Below, piece by piece: positions 40,303 to 55,132 of a DNA stretch of 64,000 nucleotides (positions within the stretch are counted from its first letter, which is position 1; every line of letters begins with the position of its first letter). A program made the translations under genes and the position numbers. Under the pieces are notes generated by a model. The model saw only the letters and a program-made list of their open reading frames with translations. It made no database searches and was not told the DNA's origin. The DNA comes from an uncultured Microbulbifer sp. GTDB lineage: Bacteria; Pseudomonadota; Gammaproteobacteria; Pseudomonadales; Cellvibrionaceae. The stretch is from the NCBI RefSeq assembly GCF_947489355.1, contig NZ_CANLDD010000015.1:1-64000 (forward strand). The letters run 5' to 3'.

Positions 40303-41688
40303 TTAACAGTTCACTGCGTTGACCGCAAGGCCGCCCAGGGCGGTTTCCTTGTACTTGTTCTGCATATCGATACCGGTCTGGTGCATGGTTTCAATCACGC
40401 TGTCGAGGGGAACTATGTGGGCACCGTCGCCGCGCAGGGCGAGGCGTGCAGCGTTAATGGCTTTTACCGCGCCCATGGTGTTGCGCTCGATACAGGGCAC
40501 CTGGACAAGCCCGCCGATAGGGTCACAGGTGAGCCCCAGATTGTGTTCCATGCCGATTTCCGCCGCGTTTTCGATCTGCTGGTTGCTGCCGCCTTGCACT
40601 GCTGCGAGGCCGGCAGAGGCCATGGAACAGGCCACGCCAATCTCTCCCTGGCAACCCACTTCCGCAGCGGAAATGGAAGCGTTTTTCTTGTACAGCATAC
40701 CAATGGCGCCGGCGGTCAGAAGGAATTTCACCACCTGGTCCTTAAGATCACCATGTTTGCTGGGTTTGTGTACAAATTCCACGTAGTAGGCGATGACGGC
40801 GGGGATGACTCCTGCAGCGCCGTTGGTGGGGGCGGTAACAATACGCCCGCGCGCGGCATTTTCCTCGTTTACGGCGAGGGCGAACAGGCTGACCCAGTCG
40901 AGGATGGCCAAACCCTGGTTGCGCTCCTCCGGGGGTTGTTTATTCAGTTCCTGATACAGATCCGCTGCGCGACGGGGCACGTTCAGTCCACCGGGCAGAA
41001 TTCCCTGCTGATGACAGCCCCTCTCAATAGAGGCATCCATCACCTTCCAGATATTCCACAAGCGGTCTTTCACCTCCTGTTCACTGCGAAACGCCTTCTC
41101 ATTTTGCATGGCCAGATCGGCAATGGCCCAGCCGTGCTGTGTGCAGGTCTTCATCAGTTGTTCGGCGTTTTGGAAGTCATAGGGCAGCAGGGTAGCGATT
41201 TCCTCTCTGTGGGCGAAGTCCTCCTCAGACAGTACAAAACCACCGCCGATAGAGAAGTAACTGCGTTCAAATAGCCGTTCTGGGCCCGAGTAGGCCTGGC
41301 AGGTCATACCGTTGGAGTGTTGAGGCAGGAATGTCTCTGTGTGGAAAGTCAGGTCACGATCGCGAATAAATTCGATCTTGTGGTCATTATATAATAGCAG
41401 GGCAGACGCCTGTTGGATCGCAGCCAATCGTTCATCGATACTGTCCACATCGATGGTATCAGGGGATTGACCCAGCAGTCCCATCAATACCGCCATGTCG
41501 GTGCCGTGGCCTAAACCGGTGAGGGCCAGGGAGCCGTAGAGGTGTATTTGTACGCGATCAGTCTGGGGCAGCTGTCCGTGGGCGCGCAGGTCCTGCACAA
41601 ATTGGCGGGCAGCGATCATGGGACCCACTGTGTGGGAGCTGGAAGGGCCCACGCCGATTTTAAAGAGTTCGAAAACACTAATACTCAT
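40303..41688 (-). CDS. sdaA: L-serine ammonia-lyase
   Basis: A 461-residue iron-sulfur enzyme turning L-serine into pyruvate and ammonia. [21 protein letters not shown] opens the beta domain. The cluster cysteines lie in [33 protein letters not shown]. Single-chain SdaA type. About 185 bp separates its start from the cmoB end. Confidence 0.96.
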
Positions 41689-41873
41689 AAATTACTCTTC
41701 GCCGGACTGCACTGTTTCGCAGCCCTCCCTGAGGGTATTGTTGCACCGTTTGGGGGCGAGCTTTGCCCCAGGGGACGCAATAATCAAGATCACAGCGGTT
41801 ATTCCGCACAAAATTCTCCCAGTGGCGGGTTTTTCCAGATTTATGCATCCGCAGAACCGTGGCGTAAGAGAAG

Positions 41874-42851
41874 CTACGGTACTTTCGCGACCAAAACCGC
41901 ACGTTTGGGCGCGGGGTGACCCTCAATGGTTTTCCCCGGTGATTGCGGATCAAGAAAATCCGCCAGGGATTCAAAGCGCATCCAGTCGGTGCGCCGCTGC
42001 TCCTCAGCACTGGTGGTGTTCAGGTCCACGGTTTTTGGGTTTTCGAAGCCACACTTGCGCAGCCAGCTCTCCAGAGTCGCACAGCTGGGGAAAAACCACA
42101 CGTTGCGCATTTTCGCGTAGCGCCCTTCGGGTACCAGGCAGTCCCCCAGTTCGCCATCAATCACCAGGGTTTCCAACACCAGCTGCCCCCCCGGGCGCAG
42201 AGTCCCGCGAAGGTCTCGCAGATGATCCATAGGCGAACGCCGGTGGTAGAGTACCCCCATAGAGAAAGTGGTGTCGAAGGCGCGCAGGTTTTCCGGCAGT
42301 GCCTCGATACCCAGTGGCAGCAGGTCCACCGGTTTCTTATTTCCCAGGTACTTTTTCAGGGCGTAGAACTGAGCAACAGACTTTGCCGAAGGATCTATAC
42401 CGATCACCCGGCACGCACCGGCACCGTAGGCCCGCCAGCAGTGATAGCCATTGCCGCACCCCACATCCAGCACCAGCCTGTTTCTGAGCGGGGCCAGGTG
42501 TGGCCGCACGCGATCCCATTTCCAGTCGGATCGCCACTCCGTATCAATGGATACGCCAAACAGCTCCCAGGGGCCTTTACGCCAGGGGTGGAGTTTTCTC
42601 AGTCCTGTTTCCAGCAGCTGCCGTTGCGCGGGGCTGGCATCGGTCGTGCTACCGACACGAATCCGGTGATTCAGTTGGATACTCGAGGGCGTTATATCCG
42701 GCAGAGCTTCGATTGCGGCGCGCCAATCGGGCAGGTCGCCCCAGCGCTGCGGGCTCAGACCCTCAGCGACCTGTTGCGGTAGTTGTGACAGCCAGGCGCG
42801 CAGGGCCGGGATATGTTGCAGGCCTTGGTAGAGTCGTGTGTAGTCAATCAC
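41874..42851 (-). CDS. cmoB: tRNA U34 carboxymethyltransferase
   Basis: Uses carboxy-SAM, made by CmoA, to complete cmo5U34 in tRNAs. The 325-residue chain shows TEWRSDWKWDRVRPHL, VLDVGCGNGYHCWRAYGAGA and the FFPSCATLESWLRKCGF end, all diagnostic. The start is GTG at 42851, 8 bp after the cmoA stop. Confidence 0.96.
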   Translation of the reverse strand: MIDYTRLYQGLQHIPALRAWLSQLPQQVAEGLSPQRWGDLPDWRAAIEALPDITPSSIQLNHRIRVGSTTDASPAQRQLLETGLRKLHPWRKGPWELFGVSIDTEWRSDWKWDRVRPHLAPLRNRLVLDVGCGNGYHCWRAYGAGACRVIGIDPSAKSVAQFYALKKYLGNKKPVDLLPLGIEALPENLRAFDTTFSMGVLYHRRSPMDHLRDLRGTLRPGGQLVLETLVIDGELGDCLVPEGRYAKMRNVWFFPSCATLESWLRKCGFENPKTVDLNTTSAEEQRRTDWMRFESLADFLDPQSPGKTIEGHPAPKRAVLVAKVP

Positions 42852-42859
42852 AGAGGTAC

Positions 42860-43603
42860 TTACTTTTCGGGCTTGCCTTTAAGAGCCAGTAAAGAGGCAA
42901 AATTAAAACACTGGAACCAGACATCCACGCTGGAAAAACCAATGTCTTTCAGGCGTCCGCGGTGGGTATCCAGGGTTTCTGGAGTCAGGATATTTTCCAG
43001 GGCTGAGCGTTTTTGTGCAATTTCCAGGGTACTGTAACCGTTGGCAGCCTTAAAGGCGTGGTGCAACTCAATCATCAGCTCACTGTGTGCTTTATCGGAA
43101 AAGTGCACCTTCTCCGAGAGAATGAAAATTCCCCCGGGGCGCAGGCCGTCATAAATTTTCTGCAGGATCGGCCGGCGCTTTGCCAGCGGGATAAACTGCA
43201 GGGTGAAATTAAGCACCACCACCGAGGCGTTTTCAATGGCAATAGTTTGCAGGTCGCTGCAGATAAGTTGTACCGGAATTTCACCGCTGTCGGCGGCGAG
43301 TACAGTGCGGGCCTGAGTTACCATTGCGGAGGAATTGTCCACCGCGACAATTTCACAGTTTGCCGCGGGGATACGGTGGCGCATGGCAAGGGTGGCTGCG
43401 CACAGGGAGCTGCCCAGGTCGTAGCAGCGGCTGCCGGCTTGTGCGTAGCGTTCTGCCAGGGTACCGGTCATGGCCACAATGGTTGTATAGCCGGGCACTG
43501 AGCGCTTGATCATATCCGGGAAAACGTCCACAACCTGGCGGTCAAACTCAAAACCAGCCACTTGCCCCAGCGGGTTTGCGTAAAGATCGTCGTGTTTATT
43601 CAT
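42860..43603 (-). CDS. cmoA: Carboxy-S-adenosyl-L-methionine synthase
   Basis: Makes carboxy-SAM from SAM and prephenate for CmoB. The 247-residue chain contains [35 protein letters not shown] and [13 protein letters not shown], typical of CmoA. First gene of the cmoAB pair. Confidence 0.96.
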
Positions 43604-44271
43604 CGGATATTTCTATGTACAGATGGGGGACTGCAGCAACCCGCCAAGGCGGTGTTGCAATGATACCAAGCAAATCAATGCGTTCACTAATAAAGTAAGC
43701 ATCAGAAAAATTTTAGCCCAAGCGCCCGGCGGCTCTGGTGCTGTTTCAATGTTACTAGTAATGCAGGAGGGAAGAATACCCCTCTGCCAGGATCGTATGA
43801 GGCATAAATGCCGATAACGAGTGTACAGGGGTGTATTCACAGCGTGTCCTGGGAGAGTGGGGTTTCTCTCCTTCCGACCCGATAGTAAAACCCCCGCGGT
43901 ACCAAGCGGTGCATTTTGCCCAGCCGAGAGCCTTTTGCTTTGAATCATAACCGTTGGCAGCGAGCGCAGGATCAGCCGAAAACGCGTCTTGAAGGGGTTT
44001 AATCGAGTATATTCTGATATTGCCGCAAGCATTTGCCAGGGAAGTGGATCGAAAAACCGCCGGCGAACCTTCATATTCACCGGCTTGGGTTCATCGGGCC
44101 TGCGCCTTGTGTCGGGGTGGGGCCTGTGCCTGAAAGGCATCTCCGACCTAAGTCTAGTTGCGCCTATTGTATACAGTTTCTATTTTGATCAACAATCGGC
44201 TGCCTGTGAGGGGAAGGGCTTACAGGCAGCGCAGTTTTCACCGGCTCACTACACCAAAAGAGGCGCCAGCT
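43604..44271. other. Intergenic region between cmoA and the depolymerase gene
   Basis: About 670 bp. Open frames on both strands, including 43613-44140 minus, match no family and have no good ribosome binding sites. The right end holds the promoter motif at 44141-44157 and a TATACA -10-like hexamer at 44170-44175, both discussed with the PHB locus. Confidence 0.5.
44141..44157 (+). promoter_or_regulatory. Shared motif upstream of the depolymerase gene
   Basis: CTCCGACCTAAGTCTAG matches 13 of 17 positions of the motif at 52828-52844 before the TonB-receptor gene. A TATACA hexamer starts 13 bp after it, and the gene start is 115 bp downstream, close to the spacing at the receptor gene. A common activator site is inferred. 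Confidence 0.55.
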
Positions 44272-45369
44272 ATGTTTTTTCAACGCCCTGGTAAGCGGGT
44301 ATCGAGCCTGTGGCTCGGTATGTTGTTTGCGGTTTTCGGTAGTATCCCGGCGCTGGCCGATTCCTGGCAGCAAAATGTGGCCATCGGTGGCTTTGACCGA
44401 GTCCATTTGTTCATTCCGGATAGCATTTCGTCCATCGGTAACGGCAAAGCGCTGCTGATCGTTTTACATGGCTGTAGCCAGTCTATCGATGTATTTCTGA
44501 CGGCGGGCCTGGAGGAGACAGCGGAAAATTACGGCATGGTGATCGCCGTACCAGATGCGGCGAATAAAGCGGGGTTTGGCTGTTGGTCTTACTGGCAGGG
44601 GGCACGTACCCGCAGCCACGGCGACTACGCCAATCTGATTAATCTGGCCACCGCCCTGTCTGGCGATGCCGCATACAATATCGATCCCGGGCAGGTGTAT
44701 ATCGCGGGCCTTTCCTCCGGGGCGGCCTTTGCCAACACTGCCGCCTGTATTGCCCCGGATATATTTGCAGGTTTTGGGGCCAGTGCCGGGCCCAGTATTG
44801 GTACCAGCGCCAGTGGGGCGATAGGCAACTGTGAGCGGGCCGACGTTGCCAGCCGCTGCCGCAATTATGCCGGTAGCTACGCCAGCCATTTGGATACCCA
44901 GATTGCCAGCATTGGCCACGGCAGCGCTGATACCACAGTGAATGCCTGCTACAACACACAAAATGCGAAGGGTATGGCCAAGGTATACGGAGTGAAGCGG
45001 ATGAGTGACACCAACCACCTGAGTGACGCAGCCGGTCACACGGCCGAAGAACAATTATGGCAGGATGGTCGCGTGTCGATGCTTTGGTTCAATGACCTGG
45101 GACACACCTGGTCCGGCGGTATTGATGCCAGCGGTTCCCATGTGGATTCGGTCAGTATTGACTATGCCAATTATCTCGGCGCTTTCTTCCAGCGGAACAA
45201 CAAACGTGTCGAGCGCATAGTCGCCGCGCAGGTTGACGAAGCACAAACAGGGTCCACTGGGGCGAAGGGGGCGACAGAAGAAGGTAAAGGGCGTGTTTCC
45301 GATGCCGAGGCGGTTTCCGCAGGCCGAGACAGCCATGCGCTGTCGGGTTCCACAGAGATCGATCCGTAG
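44272..45369 (+). CDS. Secreted poly(3-hydroxybutyrate) depolymerase-type esterase
   Basis: A 365-residue member of the Esterase_PHD/depolymerase family. A Sec signal peptide ends near PALAD (residue about 29). The fold shows LLIVLHGCSQSIDVFL, the oxyanion region, the nucleophile Ser148 in AGLSSGAAFANTAACI, and a His in LGHTWSGG. The last ~55 residues are low complexity with no recognisable binding domain. AGAGG lies about 9 nt before the ATG at 44272. The next gene is a 3-hydroxybutyrate dehydrogenase, which favours PHB or its oligomers as substrate; related family members cleave feruloyl or acetyl esters. Confidence 0.8.
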   Translation: MFFQRPGKRVSSLWLGMLFAVFGSIPALADSWQQNVAIGGFDRVHLFIPDSISSIGNGKALLIVLHGCSQSIDVFLTAGLEETAENYGMVIAVPDAANKAGFGCWSYWQGARTRSHGDYANLINLATALSGDAAYNIDPGQVYIAGLSSGAAFANTAACIAPDIFAGFGASAGPSIGTSASGAIGNCERADVASRCRNYAGSYASHLDTQIASIGHGSADTTVNACYNTQNAKGMAKVYGVKRMSDTNHLSDAAGHTAEEQLWQDGRVSMLWFNDLGHTWSGGIDASGSHVDSVSIDYANYLGAFFQRNNKRVERIVAAQVDEAQTGSTGAKGATEEGKGRVSDAEAVSAGRDSHALSGSTEIDP

Positions 45370-45696
45370 TTTTTTGGTGATCCCCCTCAAGGATAACCGC
45401 GCCGGGACAGTACACCAAGGGTGTTTGAGAGACTGTAACACCGGGGTGTAGGCTCCGCCACTCTGCTGGCTGGAGCCCCACAGATAACCCTTTCCGCTGC
45501 GAGTGATGTCCCCCCTTTAGCGGTCTGCAATCAGTGTTGGCAACCGGGCGGGACGGAAAGTGGTATCTCCGCTGCAACGCGGCTGTTTTTTTGGGGAAGC
45601 GCTTTGCCACAAGCCTCATACCTTGGTCATACAGACGGGCTTTTCGCTCCTTGCTAGGATCATTTTCGATTGACCAAGTTGAGACGGAGAATTGTG
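45370..45696. other. Intergenic region between depolymerase and 3HB dehydrogenase genes
   Basis: 327 bp without a gene. An inverted repeat GGTGTT/AACACC spans 45420-45442. A weak hairpin (CCGC/GCGG, 45569-45582) followed by seven T may terminate the depolymerase transcript. The shared motif lies at 45615-45628. Confidence 0.45.
45615..45628 (+). promoter_or_regulatory. Shared motif upstream of the 3HB dehydrogenase gene
   Basis: CTCATACCTTGGTC is identical over 14 bp to the sequence at 52828-52841 before the TonB-receptor gene. It lies about 69 bp before the likely GTG start. A TAGGAT -10-like hexamer at 45655-45660 follows, one helical turn further away than in the other two promoters. Confidence 0.6.
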
Positions 45697-46491
45697 GTGT
45701 CTGAAGGTGATCACTCCGGCAAGCTGGCCCTGGTGACCGGTTCGACCAGTGGCATTGGGCTGGGTGTGGCTCGGGAGTTGGCGAGCAGTGGCTATCGGAT
45801 CATGTTGCACGGCCTGCTGGATGCCGGTGTCGGAGCTGAAGTTGCGGCCGATTTCACGCGGGAGTTTGGCGTTGACTGTGGATTCAGCAGTGCTGATCTC
45901 AGGACTCTGCGGGGATGCACCGAATTGGTGGTGGCCACACAGGAGTTTGGCGGCAGTGTGGATGTGCTGGTGAACAATGCCGGTCTTCAATACACATCCG
46001 CAGCGGTGGATTTTCCACAAGCGCGCTGGGATAGCCTGATTGCCGTCAATCTGAATGCCCCTTTTTATTTGAGCCAACAGGTGCTGCCGGCGATGTTGGC
46101 AGTCGGCTGGGGTCGCATTATCAATATTGCATCGGTGCATGGCCTGGTCGCCTCCGGCAAGAAAGCCGCTTACTGCGCAGCCAAACACGGCCTGGTGGGG
46201 CTCACCAAAGTGCTCGCTCTGGAGTCCGCCAAGGCCGGGGTAACCGTTAATGCGATTTGCCCCGGCTGGGTGGAAACACCGCTGATCGAGCCGCAAATTC
46301 AAGCCATTGCGCAAGCGCGGGGTATCGATATGGAGAGGGCCAAAATGGTCCTTGTTGGAGAGAAGCAACCGCTACCTGTGGCGACGCAACCTGCGGCGAT
46401 CGGGCAGCTTGTCGTCTTTCTGTTGTCCGATGCTGCAGCCACCATGACCGGCATTGCCCTGCCGGTGGACGGAGGCTGGACAGCTCAGTAG
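45697..46491 (+). CDS. bdhA: 3-hydroxybutyrate dehydrogenase (SDR)
   Basis: A 264-residue SDR that oxidises (R)-3-hydroxybutyrate to acetoacetate. The cofactor motif is VTGSTSGIGLG; NNAGLQ is standard. The active site is Ser146, Tyr159 and Lys163 (IASVHGLV, YCAAKHG). CPGWVETPLIEPQI and the ending GIALPVDGGWTAQ are typical of bacterial 3-hydroxybutyrate dehydrogenases. The start is GTG at 45697 (GGAG 7 nt upstream) or the adjacent GTG at 45694. It heads an operon with the response regulator 34 bp downstream. Confidence 0.87.
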   Translation: MSEGDHSGKLALVTGSTSGIGLGVARELASSGYRIMLHGLLDAGVGAEVAADFTREFGVDCGFSSADLRTLRGCTELVVATQEFGGSVDVLVNNAGLQYTSAAVDFPQARWDSLIAVNLNAPFYLSQQVLPAMLAVGWGRIINIASVHGLVASGKKAAYCAAKHGLVGLTKVLALESAKAGVTVNAICPGWVETPLIEPQIQAIAQARGIDMERAKMVLVGEKQPLPVATQPAAIGQLVVFLLSDAAATMTGIALPVDGGWTAQ

Positions 46492-46525
46492 ACTGGAGCC
46501 AGACAATAACCCCCGGTTTCTGGCA

Positions 46526-47140
46526 ATGAGCAGTACCATTCTGATTGCGGATGACCACCCGCTCTATCGCAGTGCCCTATTCGCCACATTACAGCATGCC
46601 AGCGACGCGAAACTGATAGAGAGTGTCGATCTGGAATCCACACTGGCGACACTCGCTCACCAGGCGGATCTCGATCTGCTCCTGCTCGATTTAAACATGC
46701 CCGGCAGTGATGGCTACAATGGCCTGGCGCGAATTCGCAAGGAATACCCGCAGGTGCCGGTGGTGGTGGTGTCGGGTAGTGACAGTGCACAAAGCGTGGC
46801 GGGCGCCGCACAATTCGGTGCAGTGGGCTTTCTTTCCAAAACCGCACAGCCACTGGAAATCCAAAACTGTATCCGGGCGGTATTGCAGGGCGAAACCTGG
46901 TTTGCCGAGGAGCTGTTGGCAGCGCAGCCACAGAGTCCATTGATTGAGCGGCTGCAGGGACTGACGCCGCAGCAGTTGCGCATCTTTCAGATGATCGCCC
47001 GCGGCATGCTGAACAAGCAAATTGCCTTTGAGCTGGGGATTACCGAGCCCACGGTGAAGAGCCATGTCACCGCGATCCTGCGCAAGACGGGCTTGCGCGA
47101 CCGCAAGCAACTTATCCGTGAGGCGCAAAGCCTAAGTTAA
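46526..47140 (+). CDS. LuxR-type response regulator (CrbR-like)
   Basis: A 204-residue NarL/LuxR-family regulator. The receiver domain has DDHPL and the phospho-acceptor Asp55 (LLLDLNMPG), with a conserved Lys in FLSKTAQP. The HTH domain covers about 145-200 (LTPQQLRIFQMIARGMLNKQIAFELGIT). It lies 34 bp after bdhA. The transporter-kinase hybrid at 49414-52758 is the obvious partner, as in CrbS/CrbR (MxtR/ErdR) systems of acetate or short-acid sensing. Confidence 0.88.
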   Translation: MSSTILIADDHPLYRSALFATLQHASDAKLIESVDLESTLATLAHQADLDLLLLDLNMPGSDGYNGLARIRKEYPQVPVVVVSGSDSAQSVAGAAQFGAVGFLSKTAQPLEIQNCIRAVLQGETWFAEELLAAQPQSPLIERLQGLTPQQLRIFQMIARGMLNKQIAFELGITEPTVKSHVTAILRKTGLRDRKQLIREAQSLS

Positions 47141-47188
47141 TCTTTTCCTGGCAACCCGACAGGCAATGAAGGCCTACCTGAATACCCG

Positions 47189-48136
47189 TCAGTGGTCTGC
47201 GAGCAATTGGGTGATAAAGTCCGCAGTACGCTGGTAGAGGGTTCTGCACGCTTTGGATGTCAGTTGCTCCAGATTCAAAAAAGCGTGAATCATGTCATCA
47301 AAGTTGTGCAGCCAGACCTGTGCACCGGCTGCCTGGAGTTTCTCCACATACGCATGCCCTTCGTCGCGCAGGGGGTCAAACTGTGCAGTGAACACCAGGG
47401 TGGGGGCCAGCCTGGCACTCACCGGCATCGACAGCGGTGACGCCTGCACCCGCTCTTCTCCCCGGCTGAAATAATTTTGGAAGTACCAGCGGATCTTCTC
47501 CACTTCCAACAGATGGCCGCGCCCGTTTTCGGTATAAGACTTGTGGCTCATGGTGTAGTCCAGGCTGGGATATACCAGGATCTGCCCGAGGATCGGTGAG
47601 TCGACGCGGCTCTGGTAGCGCGCGCACAGGGTGGCGCAGAGCGCACCGCCAGCGGAATCCCCCATTAAAATCACTTGGCCGTTGTGGGGAATGTCCCTGT
47701 TCGCCAGTGCCGGGGCAAGGTTTTCCAGCACCTGATTCAGATCGGAGAGGGCGGCGGGATAGGGGTTTTCTGGCGAGCGCCGATACTCAATGGAAACCAC
47801 GCACCGCCGACAGGTTTCAGCAATTCGGCGGCAGATCGGATCGTACACCGTCACGCTGCCTGCCATATGGCCGCCACCGTGCACATAGACTATGACAGGC
47901 CCGCCGCTGGCCCGCTGCGGTAAGTAAGTGCGCACCGGGACCTGGTAGGCGCCGCCGGGAATCACAAAGTCCTTGACGGCCGTGTCGGGGCCGGTTTCGA
48001 CAAACTGGCGCGTGAGGCTGGCGAGGCCCTCGCGTGCATTGATGGGGGTCGGCTCCACTCCTGCTGTCTTTGCCTGCTCGGCCAGTGTGTGAATTTTTGG
48101 CAACCACTCTGCCAGGGTTGGATCAAGTGTTGGCAT
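47189..48136 (-). CDS. Cytoplasmic HSL-family alpha/beta hydrolase
   Basis: A 315-residue esterase of the hormone-sensitive-lipase family. The oxyanion motif is YVHGGGHMAGS and the nucleophile is Ser161 in GDSAGG. FDPLRDEG supplies the catalytic Asp and DDMIHAFLNL the His. No signal peptide, so it acts in the cytoplasm. The ATG at 48136 overlaps the end of the MFS gene by 14 bp. In this setting it may cleave imported 3-hydroxybutyrate oligomers. Confidence 0.83.
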   Translation of the reverse strand: MPTLDPTLAEWLPKIHTLAEQAKTAGVEPTPINAREGLASLTRQFVETGPDTAVKDFVIPGGAYQVPVRTYLPQRASGGPVIVYVHGGGHMAGSVTVYDPICRRIAETCRRCVVSIEYRRSPENPYPAALSDLNQVLENLAPALANRDIPHNGQVILMGDSAGGALCATLCARYQSRVDSPILGQILVYPSLDYTMSHKSYTENGRGHLLEVEKIRWYFQNYFSRGEERVQASPLSMPVSARLAPTLVFTAQFDPLRDEGHAYVEKLQAAGAQVWLHNFDDMIHAFLNLEQLTSKACRTLYQRTADFITQLLADH

Positions 48137-49322
48137 TGACGCTTCTCTCGGTATTGGCGCTGGTCCCTGTCTCGGGCAGCTTGAAGGAGACAACAAATAG
48201 CGATGCTGAACAGGCCACGGCGATCCAGGCAGCGCTGGCGGCTATTCCGCTGGCATCGGCAAAACTGGTAGCACTCCACATCAACAGGGTTTCGATACCG
48301 TAAGAAATGGACCAGAACATCCCGAAGATGACGGTGATACGCGCCGGTGTCATGCCCGGCAGCTCCTGGGGCAGAGTGACTAATGCAGTCATCGGCAGAA
48401 ACATAAAAAAGCCTGCCATTGCCGCGGCACTATAGGCAATAGTGGGAGAGCTGGTGGCAATCATTGCCGTTGCACTGAGCGTCAGCCCAGCACCACCGGC
48501 GCGAATCACTGGTAGGCGCATCGGCAGGCGCTTGGTGGTGACGATGCCGGCCACGGTGCCCACCATCCCCGCGGCAATCATCACCGCGGACAAATGGGTG
48601 CTCTGTACCGCAAAGGTATCGAGCAGTGGGAAGAGCGCAAATACGGCGATATAGCAGAAGAGTACGCCGCAGTAGGCCAGCGGCAGCCACCAGTTGAAAG
48701 GATCTGCCAGCCCTTCGCGCAAGCGGTAGGGCCGGGCCCTTTCGGAATCCGCTGTGCTACCGGCAAGGGGAATGGACTCGGCGCAGAGCCACCACAGCAG
48801 AGCGAGACTCGCGGCCATGGTACTGTAGAGGAATATCAGGTTTTCCCAACTGCCGAGCCATTGCAACAGAACGCTGGTCGTCAGCAGCGCGAGCAAATTT
48901 CCGGTATTGAACGCGGCGGCGTTTATCCCGTTTACCACCGGGCGCTCGCCGGGCCTGAAGTAATGCAGGACCACTGGATTAAAATAAACTATCGCCAGGG
49001 CACCCCCGAGGCCAAGGGCCAATCGGGATAGTAGCCAACCGTTGTAACTGTCGGCAAAGGCCCCCAGGCCGCCGGCGGCAATCAGTAAAATGGCGGCGGC
49101 GAACGCATAGCGAATGCCGAGTTTGACCAGCACGATGGCAGCGGCCAGGTTGCCAAGAATCTTTGCCAGAGTAATGGCATTGCTGCCCCAACTGGCGTTG
49201 GCGAGGCCCATCTGGGCAAACGACTGCTGAATTTCCGGTGTGAGGATGGCCCCGGCCACCCAGGATGCTGCAAACAGCGCGTAGGCGCTGAACATTAAGA
49301 CTTCTACGATAATTCTTCTCAT
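48123..49322 (-). CDS. MFS transporter
   Basis: A 399-residue major facilitator with about 12 hydrophobic segments in two halves joined by a loop near residues 195-215. Pattern and length fit small-molecule transporters of the NarK/cyanate-type branch; the substrate cannot be read from sequence. The ATG at 49322 (MRRIIVEVLMFSAYAL) is preferred to a TTG six codons earlier. It is co-transcribed with the esterase gene downstream. Import of 3-hydroxybutyrate or its dimers is an inference from context. Confidence 0.78.
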   Translation of the reverse strand: MRRIIVEVLMFSAYALFAASWVAGAILTPEIQQSFAQMGLANASWGSNAITLAKILGNLAAAIVLVKLGIRYAFAAAILLIAAGGLGAFADSYNGWLLSRLALGLGGALAIVYFNPVVLHYFRPGERPVVNGINAAAFNTGNLLALLTTSVLLQWLGSWENLIFLYSTMAASLALLWWLCAESIPLAGSTADSERARPYRLREGLADPFNWWLPLAYCGVLFCYIAVFALFPLLDTFAVQSTHLSAVMIAAGMVGTVAGIVTTKRLPMRLPVIRAGGAGLTLSATAMIATSSPTIAYSAAAMAGFFMFLPMTALVTLPQELPGMTPARITVIFGMFWSISYGIETLLMWSATSFADASGIAASAAWIAVACSASLFVVSFKLPETGTSANTERSVNANT

Positions 49323-49413
49323 ATATTGTTCACAGTGCAAAGACTGCCGCGCTTGTGGATACAGTGGTTTTTGTGGCTCTGACCCATACGCTAGCGCACC
49401 CTCTGCGCTCTCA

Positions 49414-52400
49414 CTATTCGACCTTGGTAGGAATGGCTTGCTGGGCGATGCTGCTCAGCAAAGCCCGCAGCGCGGCGGGCCTGATGGGTTTTTGCAAAAA
49501 GTAAAATCCGGCGTGCTGGGCACGGGTGCGTACCCGGTCGGTATTCTCAGCGGAAATCACGATACAGGGACAGCCACAGCCCCACTGAACGAACAACTGC
49601 CGGGCCAGGGCAATGCCGTTAGTGGCATCGTCGAGATGGTAGTCCATCAGCACAACGTCGGGCATGCTCAAGTTCCGGGTGTGCTGGCCCGTGTTGACCC
49701 GGATCGTGCAACCCCACCCCTGCAACAGCGCCTGCATGGCTTGCAGGACCCGCGGTTCGTTATCGATACACAGCACCTGCAGATGTATGGGCTGCGCGGC
49801 CCCCGGCCTGGTCGTCGCAACCGCCGGGGGTCCGGGTCGCGCCCCGGTTCGCGGCAGGCTCAGTGTAAAGACACTGCCGCGGCCCACGCGTGAGCGCAGG
49901 GCCAGCGGGGCCTTGAGCAGGCGACACAGCCGCTTGACGGTGGCGAGGCCCAGTCCGTAACCGTGACCTTCACTGGTGCCACCCAGGCGGGTAAATTCTT
50001 CAAAGATGGCGTTTTGCTGTTCTGGCGCAATACCCACGCCGGTATCCCAGATTTCCAGGCGCAGGTGATCGCCATGGGCGCGGCAGCCGATCAGAATACC
50101 GCCGCGGCGGGTATACTTGATGGCATTCTCCAACAGGTTTTGCACCACCCGGCGCAACATGTTCGGGTCACTTGCCACCCACCACGGACTGGGGCGATAG
50201 TGCAGTTGGAGCGGTGGCCCCGTTTTTTGGCGCAACTGCAAGCGCGCCTCGGCCACCGCCACATCGAGAATACTGGAGAGGGCGAGTGGCTGCAGCTGCG
50301 GCTTGATATCCCCGGCGTCCATCCGCGCCAGTTGCAGCATGTCGGTAATCAGGCGCTCGGCCGCGCGCAGGGCATCGTCGGTACGGCACACCAGTGTGCG
50401 GCTGTCACTGTCCAGGTCGTGTCCGGCCAGTGCGTCCAAGAACAGCCGACTGGCATTGAGCGGTTGCACCAGATCGTGGCTCGCCGAAGCCAGGAAGCGG
50501 GTTTTGCTGGCCATGGCTTCCTGTAAATCGCGGTTGACCAGTTCAATTTCAGCTGTGCGCTGAGACACTTTTTGCTCCAGGGAATTCCGGATGTCTTCCA
50601 ATTCCCGCACCGCGTGCGCGTAGTCGGAAATATCGGTGTAGGTGGTGACAAAGCCGCCCTCTGGCAGTGGCATACCGCGAATTTCCAGCACCGTGTCATC
50701 CCGGCGATAGCGGCGCACCTTGTAGGCGGTGCCGCGGCGCAAATGTGCCACCCGCTTACGTACGTGCTCTTCGACCGCACCCGGACCGCATTCACCCCGT
50801 TCGGCGTTGTAGCGCACCAACTCGGCGACGGGTTGGCCGACATAAATCAGGGGTGCCGGGTAGTGAAACAATGCCAGGTAGCGACGGTTCCAGGCCACCA
50901 GGTTCAGGTTGCCGTCAATCACGCTGATACCCTGCTCAATATTGTCGATGCTGCTCTGTAGCAGGCCGCGGCCAAATCGGTAGATTTCCGAAGCCGCATC
51001 GATATCCGGTGCTTTCGCGCTGCCCAGTTCGCGCAGCAAGCGCTGTGCGCTGGAGGAGCCGACAATACCGGCGAGCACTTTTTCCGTCATGTCCCGGTAG
51101 GGGGTGAAGGGTACCTGGCCGCCACTTTGTCTGTTTTTAACCGTGGCAAAGGTTTTGTGTGCGGCGTCGGCACCGATAAAGCGCGCCAGCAGGCGAAACA
51201 AAGCGTTTTTATCCGGCTGGCGCGGCGATTCGGTGGAGACTGTGTTCGTTGAGTGGCGGTTGTACCATTGGGATACCCACCACAAAAGCAGGGTGTTCAG
51301 GCCCAGGCCCAGTACACAGCTGATGGTGAGCGCACCGAAACCGAGCGCCCTGCCCAAGAGGTCGGGGTATCCCAGGGCAATTGCCAGAGGGGAGACTGCC
51401 CACACAGCGGTACCGGCGAGCAGCCCCGCAGCAACGCCCTCTGCGCGCGCCCGGCGCCAGTAGAGGCTCGCAATCATGGCTGGGGCTAATTGTGCCACCA
51501 GTGCCAGCGACAACAATCCAAAGGTGCCCAGGCGCACCTCCGCCCCCATACTGGCATTCACTAAAAGGGCGCAACCCATAATGCCGGCGATAATAACGCG
51601 GCGCACCTGGCGCAGGTTATGCCCCAAAATCTGCTGCGGGGTTTGCTGCGCCCGCTGCAGCCACCAGGGAACCACCAGGGTGTTGGCAATCATGGTGGAC
51701 AGGGCAATAGTAGCGACAATAATCATACTGGCGCCAGCCGAGAGACCGCCGATAAACGCCAATAGTGCCAGGCCCGGATTTCCGCTTTCGAGTGGCAGAG
51801 CCAGTACGAAGCGCTCGGGGTTATCGTAGTGAGCGGGCAGCCACAGGTAACCGGCGTAGCCCACTGGGGCAATAAAGAGGGTCAGTATGCCCAGGTAGAA
51901 TGGGATCAATTTGCGCAGCGTATGAATATCCTTATCGCTGTCGCTTTCGATCATCAGGATATGAAACTGGCGCGGAAGACAGAACATGGCCGCCATGCCC
52001 AGCACGATGGTGGCAAAATAACCGGTATCTGCCGGGCGGCTCGCCGCCAGCACTTGCAATCGCTCGCTGTTGAGCGCGCTGCGGGCAAGATCCCAGGGGC
52101 CGTCGAACAGAAGGTGGGAGGCATAGTAGCCGACAGCGACAAAGGCGAGGATTTTCACCAGGGCCTCCAGCGCTACGGCCATCAGCATGCCATTGCGGTG
52201 CGCCCCGCTGTCGATATTGCGGGCACCGAACATCAGCGCAAACAGACCCAGGGTGACCCCGATAACCAGGGTGATCGTGGGCGTGAAGGATTCCGAGGCA
52301 TCGGTCAGCAGCAGGAAACTGTCACTGATTGCACGCAATTGGAGTGCCAGGTAGGGCAATACCGCCACCAGTGCGACTACCGCCACCGCCGCCGCCAGTA

Positions 52401-52758
52401 GTTGCGAGCCACCGTATTGGGCACTGATAAAGTCGGCAATAGAGGTGCAGCCCTGCTGTTTGGTGAGCTTGACAAAGCGCTGCAGCAGGGGCGCGCCGAA
52501 AGCGAGCATTAGGGTAGCGCCAACGAAGGTGGGGGGCAGTAGCCAGCCCTCCTCCAGGGCCTGCGCCGGGGTGCCGAAAAACATCCAGGCACTGGTATAG
52601 GTGCCGGCCAGGGCGAGCAGCAGAGGTTTTACGGAACGAATACGGCGGACGGGTAGCCGGTCACCCCAGTAGGCCACCGCGAAAAGCAGCAGCAGGTAGG
52701 CCAGGCCCAGGAAGGCCAGAGTCATCAAGCTAAACACAACGGCATCCGCTTTGGTCAT
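49414..52758 (-). CDS. Sodium-solute symporter/hybrid histidine kinase (CrbS-like)
   Basis: A 1114-residue hybrid. Residues 1 to about 480 form an SSS (PutP-type) transporter with 12-13 membrane segments. After a linker, about 600-715 is a PAS domain (IEQGISVIDGNLNLVAWNRRYL). The HisKA box is FLASASHDLVQPLNASRLF with His761; the HATPase blocks include LLENAIKYT, WDTGVGIAPEQ and GYGLGLATVKR. A receiver domain follows, with the phospho-acceptor Asp1039 (VVLMDYHLD). The layout equals CrbS/MxtR, which sense acetate or related acids and signal to a LuxR-type regulator, here the gene at 46526. It is divergent from the TonB-receptor gene. Confidence 0.9.
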   Translation of the reverse strand: MTKADAVVFSLMTLAFLGLAYLLLLFAVAYWGDRLPVRRIRSVKPLLLALAGTYTSAWMFFGTPAQALEEGWLLPPTFVGATLMLAFGAPLLQRFVKLTKQQGCTSIADFISAQYGGSQLLAAAVAVVALVAVLPYLALQLRAISDSFLLLTDASESFTPTITLVIGVTLGLFALMFGARNIDSGAHRNGMLMAVALEALVKILAFVAVGYYASHLLFDGPWDLARSALNSERLQVLAASRPADTGYFATIVLGMAAMFCLPRQFHILMIESDSDKDIHTLRKLIPFYLGILTLFIAPVGYAGYLWLPAHYDNPERFVLALPLESGNPGLALLAFIGGLSAGASMIIVATIALSTMIANTLVVPWWLQRAQQTPQQILGHNLRQVRRVIIAGIMGCALLVNASMGAEVRLGTFGLLSLALVAQLAPAMIASLYWRRARAEGVAAGLLAGTAVWAVSPLAIALGYPDLLGRALGFGALTISCVLGLGLNTLLLWWVSQWYNRHSTNTVSTESPRQPDKNALFRLLARFIGADAAHKTFATVKNRQSGGQVPFTPYRDMTEKVLAGIVGSSSAQRLLRELGSAKAPDIDAASEIYRFGRGLLQSSIDNIEQGISVIDGNLNLVAWNRRYLALFHYPAPLIYVGQPVAELVRYNAERGECGPGAVEEHVRKRVAHLRRGTAYKVRRYRRDDTVLEIRGMPLPEGGFVTTYTDISDYAHAVRELEDIRNSLEQKVSQRTAEIELVNRDLQEAMASKTRFLASASHDLVQPLNASRLFLDALAGHDLDSDSRTLVCRTDDALRAAERLITDMLQLARMDAGDIKPQLQPLALSSILDVAVAEARLQLRQKTGPPLQLHYRPSPWWVASDPNMLRRVVQNLLENAIKYTRRGGILIGCRAHGDHLRLEIWDTGVGIAPEQQNAIFEEFTRLGGTSEGHGYGLGLATVKRLCRLLKAPLALRSRVGRGSVFTLSLPRTGARPGPPAVATTRPGAAQPIHLQVLCIDNEPRVLQAMQALLQGWGCTIRVNTGQHTRNLSMPDVVLMDYHLDDATNGIALARQLFVQWGCGCPCIVISAENTDRVRTRAQHAGFYFLQKPIRPAALRALLSSIAQQAIPTKVE

Positions 52759-52954
52759 TATTTGAGCGCGTTGGCAGCTAATATACTATCTGTCGCCCCT
52801 GAAGGCACCCGTTGACAGTGGTTCGGACTCATACCTTGGTCTAGCAGGCAAGGGTGATACAAGCCGGTAGAGTCGCAGTCCAGCATCGGTTGTGTTTTCT
52901 CCAGATCACAGCAATACCGAAATAAGAATCATTTGGATCTTGAGGGAGAGGATC
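52759..52954. promoter_or_regulatory. Divergent promoter region of kinase and receptor genes
   Basis: The shared motif CTCATACCTTGGTCTAG is at 52828-52844. A GATACA hexamer starts 12 bp after it. GGGAGAGG just before 52955 is the ribosome binding site of the receptor gene. Confidence 0.6.
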
Positions 52955-55132
52955 ATGGGCCCCAACAGCAAATTCAACCCGCTCGCTGCCGGCATCCTGC
53001 TGGCCAGTGGTGCCAGCTTCGTTTCAGCCGAACCGGTACTGGAAGAAATTATCGTGACGGCTCAAAAGCGCCAACAGTCCCTGCAGGAAGTGCCCGTCGC
53101 CGTGAGTGCATTCGATGAGGATGCGCTGCAGCAAAATGGCGTCACCGACGTTACCGACCTGCAAAAACTTGCACCCAACACGACTTTGCAGGCCAGCCGG
53201 GGCACCAATTCCACGCTGACGGCATTTGTGCGCGGTATTGGTCAGCAGGATCCTCTGTGGGGCTTCGAGCCGGGTGTTGGTATTTATGTCGACGATATCT
53301 ACATTGCCCGCCCCCAGGGCGCTGTGTTGGATTTGTACGATGTGGCTTCCATCGAAGTGCTGCGTGGCCCCCAGGGTACCCTGTACGGCAAAAATACCAT
53401 CGGCGGTGCGGTGAAATATGTTACCAAGCGTCTCACCGGTGACAGTGAACTGAGCTTCAGCGCAGCCCTTGGCAATTACAATCAGCGCGACCTGAAAGTG
53501 TCCGGTCAAACCGCGCTCTCGGATACTGTTTTTGTCAGCGGTGCTATTGCCACATTTCAACGCGATGGCTTTGGCGAAAATGTGATTACCGGGGAAGACC
53601 AGTACAACAAGGATATTGTTAGCGGTCGCGTCTCTGTGGAATTCAATCCGAGTGAGAAGCTGTGGCTGCGCCTGGCTGCGGATCAGACAAAGGATGAGTC
53701 TGCCTCCAAGCACGGTCACCGCTTCGGTCCGGGCTTGGCCGGTGAGCCGGTCCTCGACAGTGTGTATGATACCGAGACCAATCTGCCCAGCGATAACCTG
53801 GTCGAGACCTCCGGTGTATCCCTGGCCGTCGAGTATGAGGTTTCCGGCACGATTACCGTGAAGTCCATTACCGCCAGGCGGGAAGGCAATACCGATACCG
53901 TGATCGATTTTGATAGTACCCAGGGCGCCTGGTTTGATGTTCCTGCGATCTACGACGACGAGCAGTTTACCCAGGAATTTCAGCTCTTGTGGCAGGGGGA
54001 TAGCGCTGATCTGGTGAGCGGTATTTACTACTATGACGGTACCGCATCCGGTGCCTTCGATGCAGTGCTGGGCTATCTTGCGGCGCCAGCCGGGTTTACC
54101 CAGAAAGTGGCCGGCAAGGTCGATACCCAGAGTATTTCCGCCTATGCGCACTACAACTGGCAGTTCGCCGATCAATGGAACTTGAATCTGGGTGGCCGCT
54201 ACACCAGGGACAAAAAACAGGCAGCGGTATTTAAGGGCAACTACCTGGGACTCGGCAGTGATTTTCCCCATGCCCTCTACTATGCCGATACCCCCGAACC
54301 GGTTTTCCTGGCGACTTTGACCGATTACACCGGTGAGAACGACTGGGGCCAATTCTCACCGCGCGTAGGCATCGACTACCAGATCAATGACAATGCCATG
54401 GTGTATCTGTCTTACAGTGCGGGCTTTAAATCCGGTGGTTTCGATATGCGCGGTGATGCGAGCGTGAACCCGGAAACGGTCGACGGCTATGACCCGGAAA
54501 CCGTCAACAGTGCAGAATTGGGCTGGAAGCTGGATTTGTTGGGCAACCGTCTGCGCCTGAATGGCGCTCTGTTCCGGGCCGATTATACGGATATGCAGGT
54601 TACCACGCAGACCCTGGTTCCCGGTGGCGGCTTTGCCAGTGCGGTGCTGAACGCTGGCGAGGCCCGTATCCAGGGGCTCGAGCTGGAAGCGTCCTTGGCG
54701 GTGACGGACAGCCTGACAGCCAATGCGGTCCTCGGTCTTATCGACGCGAAATTTATCGAGTTTCTCAGCGGAGGTGAAAATATCGCCGATACACTCGATA
54801 TGCAGAATACGCCGGATACCACAGCGATGGTGCAGTTGAACTGGTCTATTCCTGTGGCCGACGGTGAGCTGGTGCTGAACCCATCGGTGTCCTACCGCGC
54901 GGATACGCAGATTTTTGAAACGCCGGGCATTCTGGACCAGAAGGCTTATACCCTGGTGGATGCTACTGCGACCTACTATCCGGGGTCAGGCAACTGGAGT
55001 GCGAGCCTGATCGGTAAAAACCTCGGCGATCAAGAATATCGCATTGCCGGTTACGATTTCGGTGCGCCTTTCCAAACAGGCTTCTACGGCGCCCCGCGCA
55101 CCTTGGCATTGGCGTTTAATTACGCTTTCTAG
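52955..55132 (+). CDS. TonB-dependent outer-membrane receptor
   Basis: A 725-residue receptor. A signal peptide ends near VSAEP (residue 27). The TonB box follows at once (LEEIIVTAQKRQQ), then the plug (VAVSAFDEDALQQNG, RGPQGTLYGKNTIGGAV) and a 22-strand barrel ending in the expected aromatic residue (ALAFNYAF). The class is common in marine bacteria for uptake of organic substrates. It is divergent from the CrbS-like kinase and carries the shared promoter motif, which suggests uptake of depolymerase products; a siderophore cannot be excluded. A strong terminator follows. Confidence 0.9.
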   Translation: MGPNSKFNPLAAGILLASGASFVSAEPVLEEIIVTAQKRQQSLQEVPVAVSAFDEDALQQNGVTDVTDLQKLAPNTTLQASRGTNSTLTAFVRGIGQQDPLWGFEPGVGIYVDDIYIARPQGAVLDLYDVASIEVLRGPQGTLYGKNTIGGAVKYVTKRLTGDSELSFSAALGNYNQRDLKVSGQTALSDTVFVSGAIATFQRDGFGENVITGEDQYNKDIVSGRVSVEFNPSEKLWLRLAADQTKDESASKHGHRFGPGLAGEPVLDSVYDTETNLPSDNLVETSGVSLAVEYEVSGTITVKSITARREGNTDTVIDFDSTQGAWFDVPAIYDDEQFTQEFQLLWQGDSADLVSGIYYYDGTASGAFDAVLGYLAAPAGFTQKVAGKVDTQSISAYAHYNWQFADQWNLNLGGRYTRDKKQAAVFKGNYLGLGSDFPHALYYADTPEPVFLATLTDYTGENDWGQFSPRVGIDYQINDNAMVYLSYSAGFKSGGFDMRGDASVNPETVDGYDPETVNSAELGWKLDLLGNRLRLNGALFRADYTDMQVTTQTLVPGGGFASAVLNAGEARIQGLELEASLAVTDSLTANAVLGLIDAKFIEFLSGGENIADTLDMQNTPDTTAMVQLNWSIPVADGELVLNPSVSYRADTQIFETPGILDQKAYTLVDATATYYPGSGNWSASLIGKNLGDQEYRIAGYDFGAPFQTGFYGAPRTLALAFNYAF

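Follow-up and report, generated by a model that had tools for sequence, protein, structure and literature searches.

A cluster of seven genes in an uncultured Microbulbifer sp. (assembly GCF_947489355.1) raises the question of whether a bacterium that may digest poly-3-hydroxybutyrate (PHB) outside its cells controls this with a switch of its own. The cluster lies in a stretch of 64,000 nucleotides (contig NZ_CANLDD010000015.1, positions 1 to 64,000; hereafter the window) and comprises genes for a secreted PHB-depolymerase-type esterase (phaZ-like), an (R)-3-hydroxybutyrate (3HB) dehydrogenase (bdhA), a response regulator, an HSL-family esterase, an MFS transporter, a hybrid histidine kinase and a TonB-dependent outer-membrane receptor. 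An initial annotation had placed these genes together, and open reading frame and profile searches of the window bore this out, all seven being present in the order given. In our judgement the genes probably belong to a regulon for feeding on PHB from other organisms, under a duplicated and re-tuned two-component system of the CrbS/CrbR type, and sequence comparisons argue strongly for a regulon and for its metabolic theme. The points supported in this way are the gene identities, their genus-wide co-occurrence, a shared regulator box, the presence of that box before unlinked phaZ genes, and the paralogy to CrbS/CrbR.

Shared regulator boxes

We found that four regulator boxes, which the initial annotation had not recorded, tie the genes together (Table 1). 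The pattern TNMNACYWWRGTCNHR matches at four sites in the window (starting at 44142, 45616, 49417 and 52829), one per promoter, and the 16-bp KAC-N4-GTC layout of these sites is, by eye, that of the ACTU motif as listed in Table 4 of PMC5715377, a motif given in the available part of that source as needed by CrbR in Pseudomonas fluorescens. Palindromes of the type TCATACCTTGGTCnTA / TGCGACCAAGGTCGTA were present in 40/40 receptor, 39/40 MFS and 38/38 bdhA upstream regions, counts in which several genomes were entered twice and for which the same sequences had fitted the matrix; the first motif count used 350-bp upstream regions, in which coding and promoter sequence were mixed. For the box within the last codons of the kinase gene, codon comparison showed ACC AAG GTC, one further codon and TAG in 36 of 37 distinct genes, with variation in the preceding ten codons; the exception, from Biformimicrobium (L029), keeps the box with a TAA stop inside it.

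Table 1. Genes and putative regulator boxes of the cluster (positions in the window)
Feature	Positions	Strand	Basis and remarks
Putative regulator box of PHB-depolymerase gene, TCCGACCTAAGTCTAG	44142..44157	+	Matrix 13.0 bits; 114 bp 5' of ATG; identical letters in G298
Secreted PHB-depolymerase-type esterase (phaZ-like, catalytic domain type 1, without C-terminal extension)	44272..45369	+	NF050058
Putative regulator box of bdhA, TCATACCTTGGTCATA	45616..45631	.	Matrix 20.4 bits
(R)-3-hydroxybutyrate dehydrogenase, bdhA	45697..46491	+	NF009093; GTG start at 45697, TTG at 45670 possible
CrbR/ErdR-like response regulator	46526..47140	+	Response_reg and GerE; 34 bp downstream of bdhA
HSL-family esterase	47189..48136	-	PF07859, 184.5 bits; LipP1 model 246.3 bits, under cut-off of 350
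Predicted MFS transporter	48123..49322	-	PF07690, 75.5 bits
CrbS-like hybrid histidine kinase (transporter-like N-terminus, PAS_7, HisKA, HATPase, REC)	49414..52758	-	Profile matches, tree, homology to canonical CrbS
Putative regulator box of MFS-HSL genes, TCCTACCAAGGTCGAA	49417..49432	-	Within last codons of kinase gene; codon comparison
Putative regulator box between divergent kinase and TonB-receptor genes, TCATACCTTGGTCTAG	52829..52844	.	Matrix 18.7 bits
TonB-dependent outer-membrane receptor	52955..55132	+	PF07715 and PF00593

A 16-bp matrix was trained on the receptor, MFS and bdhA promoters, and the phaZ upstream regions were kept out; two of the 38 bdhA training sites, and perhaps three more, seem to have been mis-picked, and the matrix was not redone. 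Scores of at least 8 bits were obtained for 39 of the 41 phaZ upstream regions, the other two scoring 5.8 bits (L257, L271), and for 37 of the 39 that remain without the two locus-linked phaZ genes; these 37 sites, from 33 genomes, are not 37 independent events because the phaZ genes are homologous. The same level was reached by 7 of 483 control upstream regions of other genes and by 2% of shuffled phaZ upstream regions, and two of the seven control matches were perfect boxes before TetR-family genes inserted near the module. Distances of the phaZ boxes vary from -68 to -141, and where neighbouring pairs of phaZ copies were examined (L246, L247, L254, L273, L274), both copies had a box. The genome-wide scan itself found the phaZ promoter in G118 and G304, the latter site scoring 5.8 bits.

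The TetR-family genes with a perfect box (PF00440; L038:15861-16505 and L236:9462-10172) lie, in some Microbulbifer genomes, close either to the HSL gene or to the bdhA-regulator pair, and similar boxes at L023:15742, L036:15859 and L226:7794 precede genes without a model-based identity. A boxed TetR-family gene is perhaps a second layer of control.

The window genome (G000; 4.79 Mb, 264 contigs) contains 14 matches to the pattern, 10 of them outside the locus. Seven of these fall within script-called open frames, and the other three lie before a secreted Lipase_2 gene, before another TonB receptor gene and near a contig end. The Lipase_2 gene (L314:2102-2944 / L391:4901-5743) has a counterpart in the nearest relative, G298 (L324:3189-3950), and the box is present in both genomes; no related neighbour of the gene was recognised. 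Its eight best PDB relatives are all PhaZ7 PHB depolymerase (37.5-39.7 bits over about 126 residues), making this PhaZ7-like secreted esterase a candidate second PHB depolymerase. At the further receptor gene, the box-like site (L316:3193) is 105 bp 5' of the frame.

Distribution in Microbulbifer

The initial annotation had tied its reading to conservation of the receptor and kinase with bdhA, and such conservation was found in a sample of 48 genomes of the genus (kinase orthologs called at 1400 bits or more; co-occurrence thresholds 1e-50, 1e-40 and 1e-40). The kinase gene was present in 36 genomes and bdhA in the same 36; in all of these the TonB receptor gene adjoins the kinase gene and diverges from it, the MFS and HSL genes follow the kinase gene, and the response regulator gene is directly downstream of bdhA. 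Twenty-seven of the 36 have the bdhA-regulator pair on the far side of the HSL gene, a few of them with inserted genes, and in nine the pair is intact but elsewhere (G144, G209, G271, G278, G284, G287, G291, G297, G303); in one module-bearing genome the cluster is divided over two contigs. The genus-wide core is thus the TonB receptor, the putatively SLC5-type hybrid kinase, the MFS protein and the HSL esterase, together with the bdhA-response regulator pair. None of the other 12 genomes had a kinase ortholog, bdhA or a phaZ-type esterase at the thresholds used, and G283 and G294 hold the canonical kinase paralogue alone, without the module kinase. The kinase relatives comprised 27 loci, of which 22 (L017-L038) were full-length and Microbulbifer-titled and five were distant kinases; the nearest kinase is that of G298, with 93-94% identity.

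As a member of the set, the secreted esterase stood up by presence (35 of the 36 genomes, all except G275) but not by position, since a phaZ-type gene lies beside bdhA in only the window and G298 (L225), when bdhA flanks were inspected up to about 10 kb. The description of the locus as self-contained therefore applies to these two genomes, whereas in 33 others the depolymerase gene is elsewhere, mostly with the same box.

The PhaC model PF07167 gave no PHB synthase match in any of 22 distinct genomes (23 handles), class III polyhydroxyalkanoate (PHA) synthases not having been searched, so that the PHB substrate should be external. Turnover of the cell's own PHB, considered as a role of bdhA, was set aside on the same result, and this gene probably does not serve an internal PHB store.

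The kinase and regulator are related to, but distinct from, CrbS/CrbR

CrbS/CrbR (MxtR/ErdR), the acetate system of Vibrio and Pseudomonas, likewise consists of a transporter-like hybrid kinase with PAS, HisKA, HATPase and REC domains and a NarL/LuxR-type regulator, with a 16-bp imperfect inverted repeat 5' of its targets. The module kinase has the same architecture; its residues ~12-486 and 557-1108 align with canonical CrbS paralogues at 37-41% and 42-47% identity, respectively, and two of its relatives carry the source name 'Na+/proline symporter'. The regulator, which the initial annotation had called LuxR-type, is indeed present, but it is a two-component response regulator and not a free LuxR protein, a candidate ruled out by its receiver domain (Response_reg and GerE); its best model is ErdR (192.1 bits, short of the cut-off of 390; model type 'exception').

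The clear homology of both proteins to CrbS/CrbR would also suit a plain acetate switch, with the PHB genes as bystanders, or controlled since acetyl-CoA/acetate is their end product. In addition, the box resembles ACTU, strong similar boxes occur at the canonical-type clusters L101, L073 and L074, and a search found no second, canonical CrbS in the window genome, so that acetate control may there have passed to the module pair; nine of the 36 genomes, this one included, have the module kinase only, and the next-best regulator of the window genome has 34% identity to the module regulator. However, each of the other 27 genomes with the module has a canonical CrbS gene in addition to the module kinase gene (42-47% identity in the kinase half), and the module kinases form a clade apart from canonical CrbS with 100/100 support in the kinase tree (six rows). 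Because of this separate clade and the two copies, we regard the kinase as a paralogue, not an ortholog, of CrbS. At the three canonical loci inspected (L097-L099), the kinase gene adjoins its own regulator gene and an acetyl-CoA synthetase gene, and the acs-side promoters bear other box variants (e.g. TTAGACATTGGTCGAG), whereas the module kinase adjoins the receptor, MFS and HSL genes, the module boxes stand before phaZ, bdhA, the receptor and MFS-HSL genes and not before acs or actP, neither of which is in the module, and the module regulator gene belongs to the bdhA operon. Module regulators keep the phospho-acceptor region of the canonical ones and differ in and after a stretch that we take to be the DNA-recognition helix (ITEPTVKSHVTAILRK in the window, VTEATVKAHLTALFRK in L097, from an alignment with canonical CrbR). 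A plain acetate switch is, on this evidence, unlikely, and the proposal of the initial annotation that a PHB/3HB set has its own CrbS/CrbR-like pair gains support from the separate clade, the 27 genomes with both kinases and the boxes.

In three genomes of another family of the same order (L082-L084), a CrbS-like kinase gene lies beside genes for a regulator, a TonB receptor (40-42%), an acyl-CoA ligase, a MetX-like esterase and a weakly matching GntP-like permease (40.5 of 292.75 bits). These kinases group with the window kinase (96/90), but long branches meet there and the boxes are weak, and for these reasons we do not claim the cluster as one system with the module; it possibly serves, in parallel, a different short acid or ester.

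Esterases, dehydrogenase and receptor

The window esterase passes the depolymerase family model NF050058 (179.2 bits, cut-off 150) and, in catalytic domain and fold, resembles type 1 extracellular short-chain PHA depolymerases (e.g. 8daj, Lihuaxuella). Its N-terminus is signal-peptide-like by eye, it has a lipase box, its triad S148, D220 and H278 is invariant across 38 sequences, and solved PHB depolymerases were the best fit to its predicted structure. BdhA passes NF009093 (281.3, cut-off 258) and misses the cut-off of TIGR01963 (284.7, cut-off 307.05), and the PDB entries closest to it are D-3-hydroxybutyrate dehydrogenases (1wmb, 256.9 bits). No signal peptide was seen by eye in the HSL esterase. 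Either esterase may act on PHB or its oligomers.

By sequence as well as structure, the window esterase is next closest to feruloyl and acetylxylan esterases, the HSL family is broad, and a Microbulbifer isolate also clears polycaprolactone according to the available part of PMC9628828; the set might thus serve esters of a different kind, be they further polyesters, lipids or acylated polysaccharides, with bdhA linked to it through general ketone-body metabolism. We consider this improbable, to much the same degree as the acetate switch, since the regulator gene is tied to the 3HB dehydrogenase gene in 36/36 genomes, the depolymerase model is passed, and the second boxed secreted enzyme is PhaZ7-like, albeit over the short match given above. 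Iron uptake by the receptor and MFS protein, for instance of a siderophore with 3HB units opened by the HSL esterase, is very unlikely: the best models and PDB relatives of the receptor are siderophore receptors, below cut-off (TIGR01783, 168.2 of 223.5), but its promoter box is common to the phaZ and bdhA promoters, and no iron gene lies in the module of the window, where alone such genes were annotated.

Proposed function

In the PHB regulon that we favour, the secreted depolymerase or depolymerases would cleave PHB to 3HB and short oligomers; the TonB receptor would import the oligomers through the outer membrane and the MFS protein would move them through the inner membrane; and the HSL esterase would cleave them, after which BdhA would form acetoacetate by oxidation of (R)-3HB. 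The product or its flux would be detected through the SLC5-like domain of the kinase, and the phosphorylated regulator would bind the TCATACCTTGGTCnTA-type box and so turn on phaZ, the bdhA-regulator pair, the MFS-HSL genes and the receptor and kinase genes jointly. We infer, in this scheme, the kinase ligand, the contact of the module regulator with its box, the transport of oligomers by the receptor and the substrates of the two esterases. More tentatively, and with a likelihood somewhat short of even, the SLC5-type kinase may have been re-purposed from acetate to extracellular 3HB or its oligomers, with a regulon of depolymerases, TonB-dependent oligomer uptake and hydrolysis inside the cell that would do for a polyester what polysaccharide utilisation systems do for polysaccharides and has one operator in the last codons of the kinase gene.

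Several observations weigh against a PHB regulon. The 41 phaZ upstream regions came from 58 phaZ-type matches, the other 17 not having been examined for the box. A reversed control pattern is commoner in the window genome than the box (27 matches against 14), so that the evidence lies in the placement of the boxes and not in their number. In other genera, boxes of 14-21 bits also precede the kinase gene, a porin gene or acs in canonical-type clusters (L073, L074, L087, L101; strong sites at L101:7251, L101:12019, L073:7924 and L074:7931), and canonical CrbR may therefore read similar sites, the CCWWGG centre not being confined to the PHB module. The Pfam SSF model was not among the kinase matches at 1e-3. 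The window esterase (365 aa, residues 319-365 with a predicted local distance difference test score below 50) lacks the C-terminal substrate-binding region of extracellular PHB depolymerases and the long C-terminal extension borne by most of its genus relatives, 27 of 35 fetched phaZ loci having frames of 649-788 aa, and its action on solid PHB is for this reason doubtful. In G275 (M. halophilus; also entered as G245) the module is present but the esterase matches are weak (25-32%). Finally, co-occurrence rests on three to four gain/loss events: on an InfB tree covering 47 of these 48 genomes, the module distribution needs four changes, three of them forced by well-supported branches, and phaZ changes in the same way in a mean of 2.9 of three independent pairs, which are too few for significance.

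PHB degradation is a known phenotype of Microbulbifer, and the available parts of PMC9628828 and PMC8659741, which name no gene set or switch for it, give M. taiwanensis (95.8%), M. salipaludis (96.9%) and M. elongatus (97.0%) as nearest by 16S to the degrading isolates. The module is present in genomes of all three species (L034, G284, L025), which is indirectly consistent with the PHB reading; it also occurs in M. agarilyticus.

Relation to known systems

We know of no depolymerase or outer-membrane receptor gene in the HbcR (PA2005) system of Pseudomonas aeruginosa. That system is alike in its dedicated control of (R)-3HB catabolism, but in the available part of PMC8694187 HbcR is an enhancer-binding protein that works with RpoN, not a two-component pair. 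Among SLC5/STAC systems, to which the module kinase may belong, RpuS/R of Sinorhizobium fredii (pyruvate) and CbrA/B (histidine, glucose) are each dedicated to a carbon source, but with another ligand class and other targets, among which the available part of PMC9100948 names no secreted hydrolase or TonB receptor; acetate, histidine/glucose and pyruvate are the inputs it gives as characterised by then. Literature searches, with most subscription journals outside their reach, found nothing on TonB-dependent uptake of PHB oligomers with a depolymerase, and nothing beyond a species description joining a 3HB dehydrogenase, a two-component histidine kinase and a depolymerase. No link of CrbS with hydroxybutyrate appeared in the titles or abstract openings of the matches listed, and a term search for hydroxybutyrate had no hit in the available text of PMC8402216 and PMC9927547. 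If the PHB reading is true, a further ligand class would join the few characterised SLC5-type kinases, and operator-based control would enable a marine bacterium lacking its own PHB synthase to time depolymerase secretion. The shared operator provides a ready list of regulon members, and TonB-dependent uptake of polyester fragments becomes directly testable.

Origin and surroundings of the locus

The InfB tree places G000 and G298 among module-less genomes, and their kinases fall outside the other Microbulbifer kinases and group with Biformimicrobium (support 86-91). The segment 44142-55132 may have moved as a unit into the G000/G298 lineage, or an old copy may have been kept. Its GC content is unremarkable, and a plasmid search with the regulator matched 13 of 72,556 records, all below 60% identity, and thus gave no sign of a mobile cassette.

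The HSL and MFS genes overlap at their ends by 14 bp, and a sequence search against the PDB with the MFS protein found no relative. Starts of the MFS and receptor genes were placed downstream of those of the longest frames because stop codons interrupt both longer frames in G298. Outside the module, the genes at 40303-43603 encode, by eye, an L-serine dehydratase and CmoA/CmoB-like methyltransferases, and these also flank the module in G298.

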